Virus record (IMG/VR): IMGVR_UViG_3300043777_000365
Span: 22,754 to 86,753 of that record
Length of the DNA: 64,000 nt
Source: a virus
Direction: 5' to 3' (one strand)
Of the stretch, positions 3,299 through 15,618 are shown in pieces. Positions within the stretch are counted from its first letter, which is position 1. Each line of letters starts with the position of its first letter. Below the pieces are notes generated by a model. That model searched no databases. It was given only the letters and a program-made list of their open reading frames with translations, and was not told where the DNA came from. Made by a program: the position numbers and the translations under genes.

Positions 3299-4426
3299 TC
3301 ACACCAGGGTGATGCCCGAGGCGAGCGCGCGGAGCGTCTGCCCGGGGGTGGGGACGAGGTCGCCGGTGGGGCTGACGATGGTGCCCGGGGTGCTGACGAT
3401 GAGCCCCTGGCTCGCGTACCGCTGCAGCACGCTGTAGAGCGCGGAGAGCTGCAGCGTGCCGTTGGCGGGCAGCGAGTTGACGTAGTTGAGCACGGCCGCC
3501 TGCACCGACGCGCTGAGCGCCGACGTGTTCACCCCGGCCGCGAACACCAGGTGCATCGACACCGACACGATCTGCGGGACGGTCGGGAAGACGATGACCT
3601 GGATGCCGGCGGCCCTCCAGTTGCCCAGGTTCTGGACGACCGTGGCGGCGAGCACCAGGTTCGCCACCCCGCTCGAGTCGGCGATGTAGAGGTAGACGAG
3701 CCGCGCCGGGGCCCCCGTGTTCGTGATGACCTCGACGGCCTGCGCGCTGACGACGCCCGGGGTCTGGATGGCGCCGTACTGGATGGCGGAGAGGATGCCG
3801 CGCTGCTGCGCGGTCCAGTAGCCGCGGACGCGCTCGCGGAACGTGTCGTCGTCCTCGACGTCCTCGCCGCCGGCCGTGGCGAACAGGTTGTTGCACGTGA
3901 TGGACGGGTCGAAGACCTGCGACGGGTTCGCGAAGGCCGTGAGGCTGTTCGCCCCCACCTGCGACAGCTTGCCCGCCTGCACCGCGCGCACGGCCGCCAC
4001 GGCCACCGTGTCGCTCACGGCCCCCGTCCCCGAGGTGAAGGTGGCGCTCGTCGTCGTCAGGTAGTTGAAGCCGCTCTGGCTCTTGAGGACGGTGCCGGCG
4101 GGGATGGTGCCGGCGGGGTTGGTCGCGAGCACCCGCGAGAACGTCTCGAGCCCGAGCGCGGCCGAGGCCCCTTTGCGCAGGAGCTGGTAGCGGTCCCACG
4201 CGTAGCGGTCGAGGTCGTCGCCCTCGGCCCCGTCGAGGAAGAGCCGGTTGATGCTGTAGGCGAGCTGGAGGATGCAGAGGTAGGCGATCTCGCTGACGGA
4301 CCCGACGAAGATGTTCGCGTCGGTGCCCTGCACGTCGACCTGCTGCGGGTCGATCTTGATGGCCTTCGCGATGAGATACGAGCGCCCGACCTGGTACAGG
4401 TCATTTCGGCTCACGAGATCAGCCAT
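3299..4426 (-). CDS. Baseplate J-like wedge protein
   Basis: 375 aa, ATG at 4426 (MADLVSRNDLYQVGRSYLIA). The middle shows the Baseplate_J pattern: an LATNPAGTIPAGTVL segment, alternating beta stretches, a D/E-rich FRERVRGYW motif near residue 190, then GAIQTPGVVSAQAVEV. The C-terminal part (LNYVNSLPANGTL, LYSVLQRY) is also typical of the family. It forms the wedge ring around the hub. It sits between the 331-aa gene and the gpI-position gene, consistent with a P2/Mu-type baseplate module. Confidence 0.8.
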   Translation of the reverse strand: MADLVSRNDLYQVGRSYLIAKAIKIDPQQVDVQGTDANIFVGSVSEIAYLCILQLAYSINRLFLDGAEGDDLDRYAWDRYQLLRKGASAALGLETFSRVLATNPAGTIPAGTVLKSQSGFNYLTTTSATFTSGTGAVSDTVAVAAVRAVQAGKLSQVGANSLTAFANPSQVFDPSITCNNLFATAGGEDVEDDDTFRERVRGYWTAQQRGILSAIQYGAIQTPGVVSAQAVEVITNTGAPARLVYLYIADSSGVANLVLAATVVQNLGNWRAAGIQVIVFPTVPQIVSVSMHLVFAAGVNTSALSASVQAAVLNYVNSLPANGTLQLSALYSVLQRYASQGLIVSTPGTIVSPTGDLVPTPGQTLRALASGITLV

Positions 4427-4464
4427 GGTTTTGACCCATCGCCTGCCGAAGCTACCACCGACCC

Positions 4465-5460
4465 CTAAGTCTGAGGGCCGGTCGGGGCGAGCGGAGTGGC
4501 TCCGGCGGTCGGCGGGAGGGCCTGGCCGGTCTGCGTGTTGAAAGGCATGTTGAGCTGGCGGCTCACACCCTGCCGCGTCTGCACGTACGCGGAGAACCTC
4601 GTGATCTGCGGGGTCACCGGGTCGGAGTAGGCCTGCACCGCGCACTTCAGGACCTCGGGCTCGAGGGAGAACTGCGACTGGAGCGCCGCGGCGAGCTGGT
4701 TGCGCACGGCGGCCGTGCCCAGCGTCTTCACCTTGTCGGCGAGCCCCACCCCGTACGTGAGCGGCAGGTGCGCGAATGCCCCGGGCCGGCTCATCGCCCG
4801 GCGGTAGAGCCGCTTGAGCAGGGCGACGATCCCCTGCTCGACGGCGTAGTCGCCCGAGTCGTCCACGACGAAGGCCCCGAGCGTCACGAGGCCCCCGCCC
4901 ACGCTCGTCGCGACGGCGGCGGTGCTCGCGCCGATGGTCGACCCGGCGATGCCGGACTGGCTCTGCGGGTTGGCGAAGTCGCGCGTGGGCAGAGCCTGGT
5001 CCGAGCTCGCGACGACCAGCTGCTTGAGCACCCCGTAGAGCGTGTACGACTGGGTCAGCGGGAACATCGGCACCCCGCCCGACGTCGTCAGCCCTGAGAG
5101 CGTGATGGTGTACTGCGCCGGGTACGGGCTCATCGGCCGGTCCATCACGACGTCGATCTCGGAGCTTTGAATGGTGTCGGAGTAGTCGACGGTGGTGCCG
5201 GCCGAGACCGCCGTCACCGTGCGGACCGGGTTGTTGTCGTAGCCGACCGTGCCGGCCACCGCGGCGACCGTGTAGTGGGACGGGTCGGCGCCGTCGGCCG
5301 GGTCGAGCACGCCGGACACGTACGGGACGACGTTGAAGTAGAGCCGCACGACGTTCTCGGCGACGGCGACCGCGTAGAGCAGCTCGAGCCCGCCCGTGGA
5401 GGAGTCGGGGGTGCCGCCCCAGTTCGACCCGCCCCAGTTGGCTTCGCCCCAGCCGGGCAT
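4465..5460 (-). CDS. Baseplate-module protein of unknown function
   Basis: 331 aa. ATG at 5460 overlaps the stop of the preceding gene (ATGA). The N-terminus has a Trp/Gly/Asn repeat (GWGEANWGGSNWGG), followed by beta-rich sequence and an alpha-helical segment near residues 190-260 (EQGIVALLKRLYRRAMSRPG; ADKVKTLGTAAVRNQLAAAL). The stretch PLTYGVGLADKVK and the position before the J gene suggest a gp25- or gpW-like wedge component fused to a beta domain. This is inference only. Confidence 0.6.
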   Translation of the reverse strand: MPGWGEANWGGSNWGGTPDSSTGGLELLYAVAVAENVVRLYFNVVPYVSGVLDPADGADPSHYTVAAVAGTVGYDNNPVRTVTAVSAGTTVDYSDTIQSSEIDVVMDRPMSPYPAQYTITLSGLTTSGGVPMFPLTQSYTLYGVLKQLVVASSDQALPTRDFANPQSQSGIAGSTIGASTAAVATSVGGGLVTLGAFVVDDSGDYAVEQGIVALLKRLYRRAMSRPGAFAHLPLTYGVGLADKVKTLGTAAVRNQLAAALQSQFSLEPEVLKCAVQAYSDPVTPQITRFSAYVQTRQGVSRQLNMPFNTQTGQALPPTAGATPLAPTGPQT

Positions 5461-5829: not shown

Positions 5830-6786
5830 TTACACCAAGACCCCCCCGCACCCGACGCCGGAGCTGACGCCGGGAACGCGGGGCGTGGCGAGCGCGGTGG
5901 CGACGACGGGGTACACGGTGGAGTCGGGGATGACCGCGCCCAGGGGCAGGCCGGCGAGGACGTACGCGAGCGTCGTCGCCGGGGTCATCGTCGCGGCGAG
6001 GGTCGCCCCGGTGAGCGGCCCGGCCAGCGCGGCGACCGCCGCCGCCCACGGCACCATGAAGCCCATGATGATGTTGCACACCCCCTCGATGGTCGCGACG
6101 TGGTCGGTGGGCTGGGCCCCGGCCGCCCCGAGGTAGATGCTCCCGGACGGGTTGAGCATCGTGATGGAGCTGGTCGACGGGTCGATGGTGAACAGGATGG
6201 GCGAGTCGCCGCCGGCGACGATCGCGACGGCGTTCGACTGGGTGGAGAGCTTGATCCCGTTGGAGTCGAGCCGGACGTAGTCGCCCTCGCCCGACTGCAT
6301 CGCCCAGTTGCCGCTCGCGTCCATCGCCAGCTGGGACTGCGTCGTGTCGTTGAGGACCATCCACCCGTTCTCGAACTCGAGGATGGTGTTCGGGATGGTG
6401 CGCTGGACGTTGATGTTGTTCTGGGTGACGTCGAGCCCGGCGACGACGTTCGGCCACGTGTCGACCCCGTTGGACAGGTGCCCGGTGATGATCCCTCCCG
6501 CGCGCTCGTCCCCCTGGGGGATCTGGACGATGACCTCGTCGCCGGCCTGGATGGCGTGCCAGCTGCCCTCGCCCACGCCCGCGCTCGCCTGGGCCACGCG
6601 GCAGCGGACGGGGATGTCGCTCGGGTGCAGCCGCACGTTGACCAGCGGGTAGCCGTTGGTGAAGTCCACGGGGCTCGTGCCGCCGATGGCGTTCTCGACG
6701 ATGCCGATGCTCGTCCACTGCCGGGTGTCCATGCCCGGGCGGGCGACCGACTGGCCGATGTCGCTGGAGTCGAAGTCGTCGGGCAT
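5830..6786 (-). CDS. Baseplate spike protein, gpV/gp5 OB-fold type
   Basis: 318 aa, ATG at 6786. Residues about 25-105 show the OB-fold of phage spike proteins: TSIGIVENAIGG, YPLVNVRLHPSDIPVRCRV, AGDEVIVQIPQGDERAG, GIITGHL. A beta-rich middle region follows, then a small C-terminal Ala/Gly/Pro-rich part. The spike punctures the envelope and sits on the hub encoded just upstream. The start has no Shine-Dalgarno; instead TAAGCT at 6793-6798 lies six bases before ATG and abuts palindrome copy 2, indicating its own leaderless promoter. Confidence 0.8.
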   Translation of the reverse strand: MPDDFDSSDIGQSVARPGMDTRQWTSIGIVENAIGGTSPVDFTNGYPLVNVRLHPSDIPVRCRVAQASAGVGEGSWHAIQAGDEVIVQIPQGDERAGGIITGHLSNGVDTWPNVVAGLDVTQNNINVQRTIPNTILEFENGWMVLNDTTQSQLAMDASGNWAMQSGEGDYVRLDSNGIKLSTQSNAVAIVAGGDSPILFTIDPSTSSITMLNPSGSIYLGAAGAQPTDHVATIEGVCNIIMGFMVPWAAAVAALAGPLTGATLAATMTPATTLAYVLAGLPLGAVIPDSTVYPVVATALATPRVPGVSSGVGCGGVLV

Positions 6787-6824: not shown

Positions 6825-9671
6825 TCAGGTGACCCCGCTCGACTGCTGGGTCGAGGTCGGCTTCGTCCCCGCCTGCGGCATCAGCGTCGAGTCGTCGAAG
6901 CCGCTGTTCGCGTCAAGCGCCACCTCGACGAAGTTGACCGCGTCGACCTCGATCGTGAGCCCCTGGTCCACGTCCCACGCGAGCGAGTCGCTCTTCACGA
7001 CGAACTGGCTCTGGAAGCTCGTGGACGAGAACGCCTTGAGGTACGCGCTGATGAACTGCGGGTCGAACCCGAGCGCGGACAGCTGCTGCTGGGCGGCGGC
7101 CTGCTGGGTGGCGGCGTCCTCGAGCTCGCCGATGGAGTGCTGCACGGCGGTGGGCTGGCTCGTGTCCACCCGGTCGACCAGGTACTCGATGCGGTCGCCG
7201 GCGAGCATGTCGAGCACGTCCGGGTCGGAGTTGTCGCCGCCGTAGCTCGCGGTGTTGCGCGCGGTGAGCTTCACCTGCAGCTCCCCGCGGTTCAGCCCCT
7301 CGTAGTAGTGCTGCGCCGCCACCTGGAGCGTGTTGAGGTCGGTGATGCCGCTGACGGTGTAGACGCAGTACTTGGTGACGTTGCCGCCGTCGCCGGGGAG
7401 GGTGGAGACGGGGCGGATGTTCTTGGTGGGGGTGCCGGTGGAGCTGCCCTGCTTCAGCGGGGGGTGGCGCGCGACGAGAGTTTGCTTCTTGGACTCGTCG
7501 TAGCAGTTGTGGGTTATGATCCCGTCCGACGTGAACCAACCCGACCGAGTCTGGAGATTGTAGACGTGCCCCGACCAAGCAGAACGCTCGACCTTGAGGA
7601 CCTTGCTCGTCGTTACGCGGACGGAGCCACGTTCGCCGAGCTCGAACGCGCCGAGAACCTCCCGCACAACGCCTTGTGCAGGCACTTCCGACGAGCTGGG
7701 ATTCCGACTCGCACCGGTGGCGTGGAGCGGAATCGCAAACATCGAAGAGAGCTGGCGATGTTGCTGGAGAAGCTTCCAGACCTTCCGCAACAATATGCGA
7801 CCGGGGCCGCCTCCATCCGAGACTTGTCGAGGTCGTTCCACCTGGACAGCAAAGTCGTCCGAGACTTGCTCGTCCTCGCCGGGGTCGAGGTCCGAACTTT
7901 GTGCGCCGCCAGCCAAAACCGCTTCCGAAAACTCGGACCAGAGGGAGCCAAAGCCCTCACCGAGCCCATGCACGCCGCCGTGCGCGGTCGCCGCTGGCCT
8001 CGTGAGCTCGTGCGCCGAATGCAGGAGGAACGAGCAAAGGCGCTGCAGAAGTCTCGTCGCCACGAAGGTCGGTTCGAGGCCGAGCTTGCCAAAATGCTTC
8101 GGCGCCGAGGACTGCGGCCCGTCCCGCAGCAAGCCGTTGGTCGTTACAACCTCGACCTCGGACTCCATCCCATCGCCGTGGAAGTCCACCTTTCCGGTGG
8201 GTCTCCTCTCCACTCCGCCCGCCTTCGAAAGCGAGTCAAAGACCTTGCCGATCTCGGTTGGTCCAGCGTCTTCGTTTGGCTCAACCCCAGGTCCCCGCTT
8301 CGGGAGGGCGCAGCAGACAAGATCGTCGCCCTCCACGAGCTCGCCCATCGCGACCCATCCGCGCGCCGTGAGCACTGGGTGATTCGGGGTTCCGGAGAGG
8401 ACCCGCCCGTTCCAGGCACGTGCGGTTACAAGGGTCCCTGAGTACCACCGCCGATAGGCCTTCTCGACGTCCCTGGCCGCGACGACCGAGTCGCCCACCA
8501 GGCAGCGAAGCTCGATGGCCTTGCGGGCGGTGCGGGTGTACTTGCGCCCGCACTTCGCGCTCTTGAGGTTCCGCCCCCAGACGAACGTGCGCAGCGGGTG
8601 CACCTGGCCGTCGGCCCACGTGTAGCCGGTGAACGGGTCGTCGTAGCGGGGAGGGAACCCCTTGCTCGTCGCGGAGCGGACCCGCTGGATGACGACCGTG
8701 GTCCCCTCGACGCGGCAGTTGTGCCCGACGAGGAGCATGATCTCGACGAGGTAGTCCCACACGCTCATCTTGTTGGTGCCGCTGGTGCCGCCGCCCTTGT
8801 TCGCGGTGGGGCCGCCGAGGTCGGGCCGGTACGCGCTCGGCCCCATCGACGTCGAGAGCATCGGGATGCTGCCGGAGGGGACCGCCGGCCGGTACTCGAC
8901 CGACAGCCCCTGGAACTGGGGGAAGTTGGTGAGCAGCTGGGCCACGGCCTGGTCCAGGGGCTTGGTCACGTCGATGGAGAGCATCGGCGGCATCTCCTGG
9001 TCGAGCAGGAGGCGCGTGTTGTCGACGCACTTCATCCGCACGAGCGCCGTGCCCTCCGACGAGAACTCGTAGTCCCAGTCGTCGACCCAGCCCTGGAAGC
9101 GGAGGTTCGTGCGGGGGTTGCCCTTGGAGTCGACCCACGTGTCCGGGACCATGTTCACCGGGGTGGCGGTCTGCGTCTGGCCCTGCGTGGCGGTCTGCGT
9201 CTGCCCGGCCACCCCCTGGGAGAACTGGTCTTGGGTGAGCATGCCCAGGTAGAACTCGATGGCGACGGAGCGGAACGCGCGCGGGTCCACCGGCAGGTCG
9301 ATGTAGCGGAAGGCGACGTCGAGCGTGTCGCCCTGCTTCCAGCCGTTGCGGCCCATCTTCGCGTCGTGGGGGATGATGCCCGCGACCACCTGGGTGAGCC
9401 CGTCGGAGCTCGAGCTCTGCGCCTGCGGCCCGCCGGGGGCGGCCTGGGCGCCGGCCGCCGCGATGACGTAGCGGGTGATCCCCGCCGGGGCGGTGGGGTC
9501 CTGCTGGTAGGTGAGGGGGGCGTTCTGGGAGACGGTGCCCTTGAGCAGCTGCGGGGGCTGGAGCGTGGACGGGTCGACGATGCTGTCCGCGTACTCCTCG
9601 AGCCGGAGGATGAGCCGGATCTTCGCCCCCGGGAAGTACGACTGGTCGGTCGGGTAATCTTGGTTGGGCAC
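6825..9671 (-). CDS. Tail/baseplate hub-like protein interrupted by an intein
   Basis: 948-aa precursor, GTG at 9671, preceded by TAAGCT seven bases upstream and palindrome copy 3. The extein is residues 1-389 plus 723-948, giving a 615-aa mature protein. The N-extein contains YFPGAKIRLILRLEEYADSI, a Gln/Thr repeat (QTQTATQGQTQTA) near residue 165, and FQGWVDDWDYEFSSEGT. The C-extein begins CYDESKKQTLVARHPPL and contains LAARN-like ligand repeats and GDRIEYLVDRV. Position between LysM protein and spike, with the FQGWVDDWDYEF segment, fits a gpD/gp27-type hub. Splicing is required to join the halves. Intein details are given separately. Confidence 0.75.
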   Translation of the reverse strand: MPNQDYPTDQSYFPGAKIRLILRLEEYADSIVDPSTLQPPQLLKGTVSQNAPLTYQQDPTAPAGITRYVIAAAGAQAAPGGPQAQSSSSDGLTQVVAGIIPHDAKMGRNGWKQGDTLDVAFRYIDLPVDPRAFRSVAIEFYLGMLTQDQFSQGVAGQTQTATQGQTQTATPVNMVPDTWVDSKGNPRTNLRFQGWVDDWDYEFSSEGTALVRMKCVDNTRLLLDQEMPPMLSIDVTKPLDQAVAQLLTNFPQFQGLSVEYRPAVPSGSIPMLSTSMGPSAYRPDLGGPTANKGGGTSGTNKMSVWDYLVEIMLLVGHNCRVEGTTVVIQRVRSATSKGFPPRYDDPFTGYTWADGQVHPLRTFVWGRNLKSAKCGRKYTRTARKAIELRCLVGDSVVAARDVEKAYRRWYSGTLVTARAWNGRVLSGTPNHPVLTARGWVAMGELVEGDDLVCCALPKRGPGVEPNEDAGPTEIGKVFDSLSKAGGVERRPTGKVDFHGDGMESEVEVVTTNGLLRDGPQSSAPKHFGKLGLEPTFVATRLLQRLCSFLLHSAHELTRPAATAHGGVHGLGEGFGSLWSEFSEAVLAGGAQSSDLDPGEDEQVSDDFAVQVERPRQVSDGGGPGRILLRKVWKLLQQHRQLSSMFAIPLHATGASRNPSSSEVPAQGVVREVLGAFELGERGSVRVTTSKVLKVERSAWSGHVYNLQTRSGWFTSDGIITHNCYDESKKQTLVARHPPLKQGSSTGTPTKNIRPVSTLPGDGGNVTKYCVYTVSGITDLNTLQVAAQHYYEGLNRGELQVKLTARNTASYGGDNSDPDVLDMLAGDRIEYLVDRVDTSQPTAVQHSIGELEDAATQQAAAQQQLSALGFDPQFISAYLKAFSSTSFQSQFVVKSDSLAWDVDQGLTIEVDAVNFVEVALDANSGFDDSTLMPQAGTKPTSTQQSSGVT
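7515..7520 (+). promoter_or_regulatory. Possible -10 box for the antisense endonuclease
   Basis: TATGAT lies 45 bases before the GTG start, inside the codons of the intein's last residues. No convincing -35 is seen. Many promoters in this window also show only a -10. Confidence 0.35.
7566..8441 (+). CDS. Homing endonuclease, Vsr/DUF559-like, nested antisense inside the intein
   Basis: 291 aa, GTG at 7566 with GGAG nine bases upstream. N-terminal residues 1-50 read as an HTH/adaptor segment (DLEDLARRYADGATFAELER, HNALCRHFRRAGIPTR), and a second one lies near 75-105. The C-terminal domain shows a PD-(D/E)XK layout: FEAELAKMLRRRGL, then YNLDLGLHPIAVEVH, then KDLADLGWSSVFVWL. This resembles Vsr/DUF559-type homing endonucleases. 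The gene lies wholly within the intein coding sequence on the other strand. Its codons are in exact register with the sense codons, so the sense frame stays open as long as TTA, CTA and TCA are avoided here. It probably cuts intein-less hub alleles. Confidence 0.75.
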   Translation: MPRPSRTLDLEDLARRYADGATFAELERAENLPHNALCRHFRRAGIPTRTGGVERNRKHRRELAMLLEKLPDLPQQYATGAASIRDLSRSFHLDSKVVRDLLVLAGVEVRTLCAASQNRFRKLGPEGAKALTEPMHAAVRGRRWPRELVRRMQEERAKALQKSRRHEGRFEAELAKMLRRRGLRPVPQQAVGRYNLDLGLHPIAVEVHLSGGSPLHSARLRKRVKDLADLGWSSVFVWLNPRSPLREGAADKIVALHELAHRDPSARREHWVIRGSGEDPPVPGTCGYKGP

Positions 9672-13824: not shown

Positions 13825-15618
13825 CTAAAAAGAAGATTGTGGCACTTGGGTTGAAGCCGACACCTTGCTTCGTGCTGCTCTACCAAACCCCTCTTTCATC
13901 ACAGCGACCAGGCGGTCCGGGTCGGTGTCCTTGAAGTCCTGCTGGATCGTGATCGCCCCCGTGAAGTTGTAGACGGGGGGAGCCTTGATGGCGCCGACCT
14001 CGGGCTCGCCCCCGCCCGCCACGCCCGTGCGCATCGCCCCGGGCCGGTCGTGCGCCATGCCGGCCCCCTGGATCTCGTGCCCGATGTCGAACGCCTCCTC
14101 GACGGTGTGCAGGAGGTCCACGAGGTGATGCTCCAGGAACGCGAACGCGTGCGCCAGGTCCGCGACGACGAAGGAGACCTCCTTCACCTTGTCCAGGAGC
14201 TCCATCCCGAGCCACTCGGCCAGCCCCTTCAGGTCCGCGCCCACGGAGTCCGACCCCTGCGTCAGCGCGTCCCACGCCTCCATCAGGTTCGACTCGATGA
14301 CCTCCATCGCGACCTGCGCCTCGCCGTAGTACTCGCTCGTCTCGTCGGTCAGGTCCACGAACGCCCCGTAGACGGCCGCCACGGCCCCCGCGAGCGCGAC
14401 GGCCGCCACCGCCTCGGCCGCGAGGGTGACCGGGTCGAACGCCGCGGCCACGGCCTCGCCGAGCTCGGTGACGGACGCGGACAGCCCCTTGGAGAAGAGC
14501 CCGCCGATGGCGTCCGCCGCCCCCGTCGCCGCCGCCGTGCCGACATTGGCCACGCCCGGGGCCGCCTGGAGGATCTTCCCCGCGGCGAACGCCTCCGCGA
14601 TGGCCGCCTTGTGCGCGAGGATGAAGTCGACGACGGCCTTGACGTCGTGCGCCCCCTTGGAGAACGCCTCCTTGATCTGCTCGGCGTGGTCCTGCAGGTA
14701 CTCGAACCCCTCCTGGATCTTGTCGGCGGCCTCGCCGATCCACTCGCCGACCTTGTCCCCCACCGTCGAGGCGAACGCCTCGATGGCCTCCTTGTGGTCC
14801 TGGAAGTAGCCGCGCAGCCGGTCGAGCGGCCCGCCCAGCGCCTTGAGGATGGGGGCGCCGAGGCTCTCGAAGATCTCCTCGCGCATCGTCTTGAGCGAGG
14901 TGACCAGCTCGTTGAAGGTGAGCGGCAGCCCCTTCATCTTCGCCCCCATCTTCTCGACGGCGTCGATGCCGAGCTGCATCGCCTGCTCCGGGCTCATCTT
15001 CGTCATCTGCGCGGCGACCTGCTTGGCCGTGCCGGCGAGCATCCCGGTGGCCGAGATCATCTGCACGATGGGGTTGCGGGCCCGGATGATGCCGGAGGAG
15101 AGGTTGGAGAACCCCGTGGAAAGCGCGCTGATGCCGCCGGGGACGGCCTTGCCCGCGTTCGCCATCTGCTCGGTGAGCTGCTCGACGTCCTTGGTGGCGA
15201 GGCCGGTGCGCTCCGCCATCTCGTCGAACGCCGCGACCACATCCCCCTTCGCCTGGCCGGTGGTCTCGGCGAGCTCAGCGAAGCTCTCGTTCAGCTCGTG
15301 CGCCTCGCCGCCGAGCTCCTCGAGCGACGCCCCCTCCTCGTCGATCATCGCGAGCACGCCGCGGATGGCCTTCTCCTGCTCCTCCATCCCCGCGGCGGCC
15401 TCGAACGCCTCGTGCCCGAGCTCCTTGATGCTCTCGACCGCCCCCTCCAGCTGGAACCCGAGCGCGACGGCGGCCGCGTTCTTGAACATCTCGACCAGCT
15501 CGTGGCCGGTCTCCATCACCTTCTCGTCCAGCGCCTCGAAGCCCTCCCCGATGTGGTGGAGGGCCTCGGACATGTGGTCTTCCAACCGGAGGGAAGTCTT
15601 CACCTCGTGTTCGGCCAT
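13825..15618 (-). CDS. Tail tape-measure protein
   Basis: 597 aa, ATG at 15618. Long helical Ala/Glu-rich protein: RLEDHMSEALHHIGEGFEAL at the N-terminus, repeated KELGHEAFEAAAGMEEQEK-type helices, and hydrophobic Ala/Val segments near residues 340-420 (AAEAVAAVALAGAVAAVYGA) that could cross membrane. It lies downstream of the chaperone G/GT pair, the canonical order. It sets tail length and is ejected with DNA. Variant palindrome copy 4 lies just upstream of the start. Confidence 0.85.
   Translation of the reverse strand: MAEHEVKTSLRLEDHMSEALHHIGEGFEALDEKVMETGHELVEMFKNAAAVALGFQLEGAVESIKELGHEAFEAAAGMEEQEKAIRGVLAMIDEEGASLEELGGEAHELNESFAELAETTGQAKGDVVAAFDEMAERTGLATKDVEQLTEQMANAGKAVPGGISALSTGFSNLSSGIIRARNPIVQMISATGMLAGTAKQVAAQMTKMSPEQAMQLGIDAVEKMGAKMKGLPLTFNELVTSLKTMREEIFESLGAPILKALGGPLDRLRGYFQDHKEAIEAFASTVGDKVGEWIGEAADKIQEGFEYLQDHAEQIKEAFSKGAHDVKAVVDFILAHKAAIAEAFAAGKILQAAPGVANVGTAAATGAADAIGGLFSKGLSASVTELGEAVAAAFDPVTLAAEAVAAVALAGAVAAVYGAFVDLTDETSEYYGEAQVAMEVIESNLMEAWDALTQGSDSVGADLKGLAEWLGMELLDKVKEVSFVVADLAHAFAFLEHHLVDLLHTVEEAFDIGHEIQGAGMAHDRPGAMRTGVAGGGEPEVGAIKAPPVYNFTGAITIQQDFKDTDPDRLVAVMKEGFGRAARSKVSASTQVPQSSF

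Follow-up and report, generated by a model that had tools for sequence, protein, structure and literature searches.

Putative homing endonuclease genes nested antisense and in codon register within phage inteins

Canonical homing-endonuclease inteins contain a LAGLIDADG or HNH domain within the Hint fold. The intein described here, located in a 64,000-nucleotide stretch of the virus record IMGVR_UViG_3300043777_000365 (the window), resembles them in its Hint ends, in the coding of an endonuclease between blocks B and F and in the site-specific insertion into conserved genes. In contrast to the canonical elements, its endonuclease is encoded on the opposite strand and outside the spliced polypeptide, with its own start codon and Shine-Dalgarno (SD) sequence, and the codons involved are double-coding. 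Antisense homing endonuclease genes have been described in nuclear group I introns, such as I-DsqI in Dsq.L2066 (PMC9548176), where the endonuclease gene is likewise antisense to the host gene in a self-splicing element; however, the sense strand of Dsq.L2066 is a ribozyme without protein-coding duty, whereas both strands of the window intein are protein-coding and in register. Phage methylases can contain the ShiLan domain or similar out-of-frame HNH insertions (PMC11855218), which also combine an endonuclease in another frame of the insertion with an open host frame and a disjunct distribution, but the ShiLan endonuclease, an HNH enzyme with zinc fingers, uses an alternative frame with no documented antisense gene, there is no splicing domain, no SD was found, and the inserted product is thought to be retained in the protein. 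Regarding the enzyme, the catalytic-domain fold (Vsr/DUF559/MTES_1575) and the position of a glutamate are shared with I-Bth0305I (3r3p), which differs in having Ala at the position of the invariant D of the YNxD motif and in belonging to a group I intron instead of lying antisense in an intein.

Non-canonical actinophage inteins are the subject of a 2025 preprint (10.1101/2025.01.02.630785), which PMC11855218 cites with regard to overlapping reading frames and which surveys the inteins of PhagesDB. The survey probably includes the Gordonia MuF inteins considered below and may overlap with the present finding for Gordonia phages. No report of an intein with an endonuclease gene on its antisense strand was found in the literature, in a search that did not extend to this preprint.

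The intein and the gene on its complementary strand

Coordinates of the features are given in Table 1. The neighbours of the host gene encode a baseplate wedge protein (3299-4645, minus strand; phrog_6, E 1e-37) and a tape measure protein (13825-15618, minus strand; E 4.5e-10), and the name "hub" for its product is a guess based on gene position and neighbourhood alone. No homologue of the exteins (residues 1-389 and 723-948) was detected among viral contigs and phage records. The earlier note, made from the sequence alone, had placed an intein with all splice residues in this gene, and both its coordinates and the residues were confirmed in the translation: the intein extends over precursor residues 390-722 (Cys390 to Asn722) and contains Cys1, TPNH (block B), GHVYNLQT (block F), a terminal HN and Cys+1. 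It matches Pfam Intein_splicing (E 1.8e-6, under the curated cut-off) and PHROG 15127, annotated as "head protein" (4e-31). The AF2 model has pLDDT values of 93-98 at residues 1-65 and 300-333 and mostly of 35-60 in the interior, and its best Foldseek matches are the RecA, GyrA and DnaB inteins. By sequence and predicted structure, the criteria for a class 1 intein (splice residues and Hint fold) are met, splicing itself being inferred. The Pfam search gave no nuclease family on the sense strand of the intein, as expected from the claim that its middle lacks a sense-strand endonuclease.

Table 1. Position of the host gene, the intein and the nested gene in the window.
Feature	Position	Strand	Basis or sequence
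Host gene, tail-module protein, 948-aa precursor	6825..9671	-	ORF
Intein, 333 aa, Cys1 ... HN, then Cys+1	7506..8504	-	Splicing motifs in translation, Pfam, AF2, Foldseek
Dual-use block F	7551..7571	both	Sense GHVYNLQ; antisense ctGGAG-N9-GTG
Antisense homing-type endonuclease gene (putative), 291 aa, GTG start	7566..8441	+	tblastn, Pfam, AF2
Nuclease N-terminal helical region, two predicted helix-turn-helix units (DNA binding)	7593..7880	+	AF2 helices 10-104
Nuclease active-site core (putative) E171, Y194-N195-x-D197, E206	8076..8183	+	Nuclease alignment
Dual-use block B	8376..8390	both	Sense TPNHP; antisense nuclease C-terminal WVIRG

The ORF coordinates also bear out the 291-codon antisense gene proposed earlier, which runs from its GTG to its stop codon in exact codon register with the sense frame, so that 87% of the intein is double-coding. 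Helix-turn-helix (HTH) and PD-(D/E)XK features had been read from its sequence, and both were supported. AF2 predicts a confident fold (mean pLDDT 92.6), in which helical DNA-binding units at the N-terminus are followed by a nuclease domain at the C-terminus; HTH families were found in members of the nuclease family, along with a profile match to PDB 2lvs (E 4e-9). Among the Foldseek matches of the model there are 3r3p, the catalytic domain of I-Bth0305I (prob 0.99, TMt 0.54), and the endonuclease-like 3hrl (TMt 0.71), the best E-values being weak (2e-2), and a profile search matched 3r3p with E 2.7e-4. A search of both frames with Pfam HMMs, which had been suggested as a check, returned on this strand MTES_1575 (E 2e-4 in the window nuclease, which like the intein match is below the curated cut-off, and E<=0.01 in 62 of 80 relatives). 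Throughout 80 nuclease sequences, Y194, N195, D197 and E206 are invariant and E171 is nearly so; read backwards, this core is the sense-strand motif DFHGD. In the alignment to 3r3p, the invariant D197 stands opposite Ala and E206 opposite Glu. Because 3r3p lacks the D of YNxD in this alignment, the family was not filed as EDxHD and is treated, on these alignments, as a sister group of the EDxHD enzymes. The requirements for a Vsr/PD-(D/E)XK-type nuclease fold with a conserved acidic active site are met at the level of sequence and model, and catalysis is inferred.

The open antisense frame itself carries no weight in this phage. The exteins have a GC3 of 0.987, and in four of the nine neighbouring late-gene ORFs checked the antisense register-0 frame is completely open over the whole length. 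Openness within the window, equally found in these neighbours, was therefore rejected as evidence: it is at chance level, and the window by itself is no proof of a nested gene. The fall of the sense-frame GC3 to 0.75 inside the intein is a hint of such a gene, and the evidence beyond chance comes from the homologues.

Homologues, free-standing relatives and alleles

Searches by tblastn retrieved 111 annotated phage records with the antisense protein and 120 with the sense intein. A scan of viral contigs with the single nuclease sequence gave no match and a 12-sequence nuclease alignment was too divergent as a query, but split alignments succeeded, and the scans by nuclease sequence alone yielded 244 loci, corresponding to 190 distinct cores, which share common ancestry and so do not represent 190 independent events. 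Of the 190 cores, 188 are nested, and in these antisense register 0 is free of stops along some 170-300 codons; the other two registers were open in none of the 190 (mean 7-24 stops), and register 0 was still stop-free in the 44 nested cores at 35-50% GC. The host genes of low-GC phages have no long antisense-open stretch other than the intein. Canonical splicing motifs surround most nested cores, and C1, T39, H42 and N333 are invariant in a 50-sequence intein alignment.

Among the annotated phages examined, the nuclease is antisense, in register 0 and inside an intein in Gordonia Vivi2, Angelicage and Malisha, in Rctr197k, Vibrio H2, Idiomarinaceae 1N2-2, Aaphi23, P. aeruginosa BR313c, Salmonella SGPC and E. 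coli Snoke, in genes annotated as head morphogenesis, minor capsid or hypothetical. The hosts of the phages comprise Gordonia, Mycobacterium, Salmonella, E. coli, Klebsiella, Pseudomonas, Vibrio and Aggregatibacter, in addition to environmental virus contigs. Four matches with the same arrangement were found in bacterial genome contigs, and the nuclease is rare on bacterial chromosomes, occurring in 2 of the 398 genomes of a single phylum. The genes interrupted by nested inteins match Phage_Mu_F in 76 of 126 cases, others matching min_cap2, VG15, portal, dCMP deaminase and UDG, and the window intein extends this range to a tail gene. When the search was conducted from the sense side, all five distinct same-family phage inteins examined carried an intact antisense nuclease (HMM E 1e-47 to 1e-67); the sixth record, Xanthomonas FoX3, is an unrelated ordinary helicase intein without one. 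Absence of homologues of the antisense frame, or homologous inteins with that frame broken, had been named as grounds for refutation, and neither was encountered; the central reading, a nuclease gene antisense in an intein that appears competent for splicing, survived all tests made.

In Acinetobacter IME285 (L011) and in a second locus (L150), the nuclease is free-standing and adjoins an uninterrupted MuF gene. These two genes contain 12 and 5 TTA, CTA or TCA codons; their sense frames are closed, with 12 and 5 stops, and the mirror motifs are lost. Nuclease coding alone does not impose an open mirror frame, and the two loci constitute a natural control. The earlier note had attributed the open sense frame to avoidance of TTA, CTA and TCA, and this holds throughout the nested nucleases, where none occurs among 3712 Leu and 3102 Ser codons. 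We infer that the free-standing relatives might be a source or an escape form.

Evidence consistent with mobility comes from the codon boundary VIN|CRCTML in the MuF gene of Gordonia Vividuovirus phages, where flanks are mostly 90-99% identical. Geodirt and Brandonk123 have no insertion there, whereas Vivi2 and Angelicage share a 948-nt intein; Kewpiedoll has a divergent intein of 825 nt, with an antisense nuclease of the same family (E 4e-53), and Nordenberg an unrelated one, also of 825 nt. At this gene the nuclease sits in a site-specific element with both filled and empty alleles. In the E. coli phages KMB36 and Snoke the inteins occupy different sites of the same gene. Intein-less relatives of the window host gene, whose insertion point had been put forward for testing as the nuclease target, were not found among viral contigs or phage records, and the target in this phage is unproven.

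Selection on both frames and dual use of the splicing blocks

In the codon-position analysis, variation is greatest at the sense third position throughout the extein and the splicing flanks, and at the nuclease third position inside the intein. Outside the nuclease ORF the ratio of sense position 3 to position 1 divergence is 1.5-2.7; it is 1.0-1.3 at the nuclease ends, which overlap blocks B and F, and 0.57-0.72 in the interior, and the flip coincides with the borders of the ORF; the position profile indicates dual constraint at the block B end of the nuclease. In a four-class test, single-base changes in 39 disjoint pairs were sorted by their effect on the two frames, ignoring codons with more than one change. 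NN/SN was 0.146 [0.130-0.163] for the nuclease and NN/NS 0.397 [0.350-0.452] for the sense frame, the control with the antisense of exteins giving 1.026 [0.918-1.149]; SN exceeded NS in 38 of 39 pairs, and nuclease-silent, sense-changing substitutions outnumbered the reverse 2.7 to 1. These ratios indicate that both frames are constrained and the nuclease far more: judged by the substitutions, purifying selection is strong on the nuclease and weaker on the sense frame, and that on the antisense frame goes beyond what the sense frame explains. Selection confined to the sense frame, the remaining ground for refutation, is thus contradicted by the comparison of rates that had been proposed.

The ribosome site attributed to the nuclease was also corroborated. 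The SD sequence GGAG lies at 7553-7556, and the start codon (7566-7568) is formed on the opposite strand by the His codon of block F. In the relatives, block F read backwards is [C/T]TGGAGGTTGTAAAC-ATG, that is, SD, spacer and start codon, the N-L-Q codons giving GGAG on the other strand and the His codon giving ATG or GTG. Either His codon would yield a start codon, ATG or GTG; nevertheless, His is CAT (ATG) in 106 of 122 relatives versus 35% in exteins (z 9.4), and Leu is CTC in 100 of 122 versus 23% (z 15.9). The His of block G, which is outside the nuclease, served as a control and has no such bias (CAC 50 : CAT 31). This strong codon bias is good evidence that the antisense frame would be translated from its own mRNA, expression remaining an inference. 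A sigma-70-like promoter for the antisense transcript was searched for in the window and none was found; the suggestion that the nuclease is expressed early from its own promoter is not supported.

Proposed mechanism and alternative explanations

We propose, with a probability of roughly 0.88, that this is a mobile intein whose homing endonuclease is a separate gene of the complementary strand instead of an intein domain. We have demonstrated the architecture, the dual selection and, at one Gordonia phage site, the disjunct allelic distribution, while splicing, antisense transcription, cleavage and homing are inferred. Translation of the sense strand, as part of the late tail gene, would yield a Hint splicing domain with a poorly structured stretch connecting its two ends, and protein splicing would excise the intein. 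The other strand, in exact codon register, would encode a nuclease with two HTH units and a Vsr/PD-(D/E)XK-type domain, with its putative ribosome entry within block F and its C-terminus mirroring block B. Made from an antisense transcript, the nuclease would cut intein-less alleles at the insertion site, and repair would copy the intein and the nested gene into the cut allele.

The antisense ORF could be a mere side effect of GC-rich codon usage in an intein that alone is real, a view with which the open frames of neighbouring genes in the window agree. However, the homologues are open even at 38-50% GC, low-GC phages have no other long antisense-open stretch in the gene, the antisense protein is predicted to fold with high confidence, and substitutions are mostly synonymous in its frame; the codon-position test rules this explanation out, and we give it practically no credence. 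It could also be argued that the sense frame encodes a selected domain, for example around DFHGD, of which the antisense conservation is the mirror image, given that this motif is well conserved in the sense alignment and that the sense frame is under some purifying selection. Against this stand the 2.7 to 1 excess of nuclease-silent substitutions, the lack of a confident predicted fold for the sense interior and active-site residues that are intelligible in the nuclease frame only, and such a domain seems very improbable.

Somewhat less remote, but still unlikely, is that the nuclease works and is not, or is no longer, the homing enzyme of this intein, serving instead for self-homing, phage exclusion or packaging. 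In other families of phage nucleases, free-standing members are known to take part in intronless homing or exclusion, and L011 and L150 stand directly beside uninterrupted MuF genes; nevertheless, the nuclease is found almost exclusively within inteins, and homing would be expected to leave just such a pattern, in which empty, filled and rival alleles share a single codon boundary between flanks that are mostly 90-99% identical.

The mobile intein with a complementary-strand endonuclease appears not to be the only case of antisense nesting. The intein of Nordenberg encodes on its antisense strand, in register, a 196-codon LAGLIDADG-like protein (AAYVAAFIDGEG). Between the Nordenberg and Barsten alleles the antisense codon positions 1/2/3 differ 16/6/51 times, which marks the antisense frame as the one under selection. 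There was no informative Pfam match for this protein and no relative in viral contigs; its presumed relation to LAGLIDADG enzymes is based on the motif FIDGEG, on a weak match to I-MsoI (E 1.3e-3), a match to a free-standing cyanophage endonuclease (E 2e-6) and the codon-position test. From this case, antisense nesting in inteins appears to have arisen at least twice.

Taking both cases together, we consider it somewhat more likely than not that antisense nesting is a general intein architecture that has recurred, having arisen at least twice, with unrelated folds (Vsr-like and LAGLIDADG-like) and always in codon register, where a stop-free mirror frame is cheap. Block F of the larger family would be bidirectional, serving splicing and nuclease initiation, and nuclease and splicing domain would be locked together yet separately expressed, with the free-standing relatives beside intein-less MuF genes as source or escape form. 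About 290 codons under measurable selection on both strands make an unusually large and clean case of double coding, offer a natural system for its study and point to a new source of site-specific nucleases. The arrangement is relevant to the question of how a homing endonuclease could enter an intein and leave splicing intact, as a selfish gene inside an essential gene. Inteins without a sense endonuclease need to be re-read, given that apparent mini-inteins may be fully armed; in the records examined, most members carry no annotation beyond "head morphogenesis" or "hypothetical protein".

Free-standing relatives and a rival intein

Two relatives of the antisense nuclease, a Vsr/PD-(D/E)XK-type homing-type endonuclease, were found as free-standing genes, one of them in Acinetobacter phage IME285. 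Both lie directly downstream of an uninterrupted MuF gene and are convergent to it, and in both the mirror frame, which is the opposite-strand frame in codon register with the nuclease, is closed.

In Gordonia phage Nordenberg, the MuF gene carries an intein that is unrelated to those of the Vsr-type antisense-nuclease family and occupies the MuF site at which other Gordonia phages carry inteins of that family. This intein has a LAGLIDADG-like nuclease on its antisense strand, in the same codon register as in the Vsr-type cases, and the antisense frame is the one under selection.

Other intein positions

The related phages Snoke (an Escherichia phage) and KMB36 have antisense-nuclease inteins in the same minor head gene, at two different sites. 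In virus Rctr197k (619-2025), the intein interrupts a dCMP deaminase-like gene within its PCxxC zinc motif; this gene is annotated in the record as a head morphogenesis protein.

A repeated palindrome

The perfect 20-bp palindrome TTGGAAACCCGGGTTTCCAA occurs 17 times in the window with up to three mismatches allowed (expected, 0). Several copies are located at gene starts, for instance directly upstream of the hub gene (so named from its position) and of 5830-6786(-). The palindrome may serve across the whole phage as an operator, a promoter or an element resembling a stoperator.

Positions of free-standing nuclease genes and palindrome copies
Feature	Sequence	Positions
Free-standing nuclease	L011 (IME285)	449-1348
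Free-standing nuclease	L150	3498-4364
Palindrome copies	Window	1329, 6800, 9686, 15635, 20891, 22297, 28316, 31310, 36248, 37903, 38774, 41596, 49070, 52104, 56992, 58618, 62024
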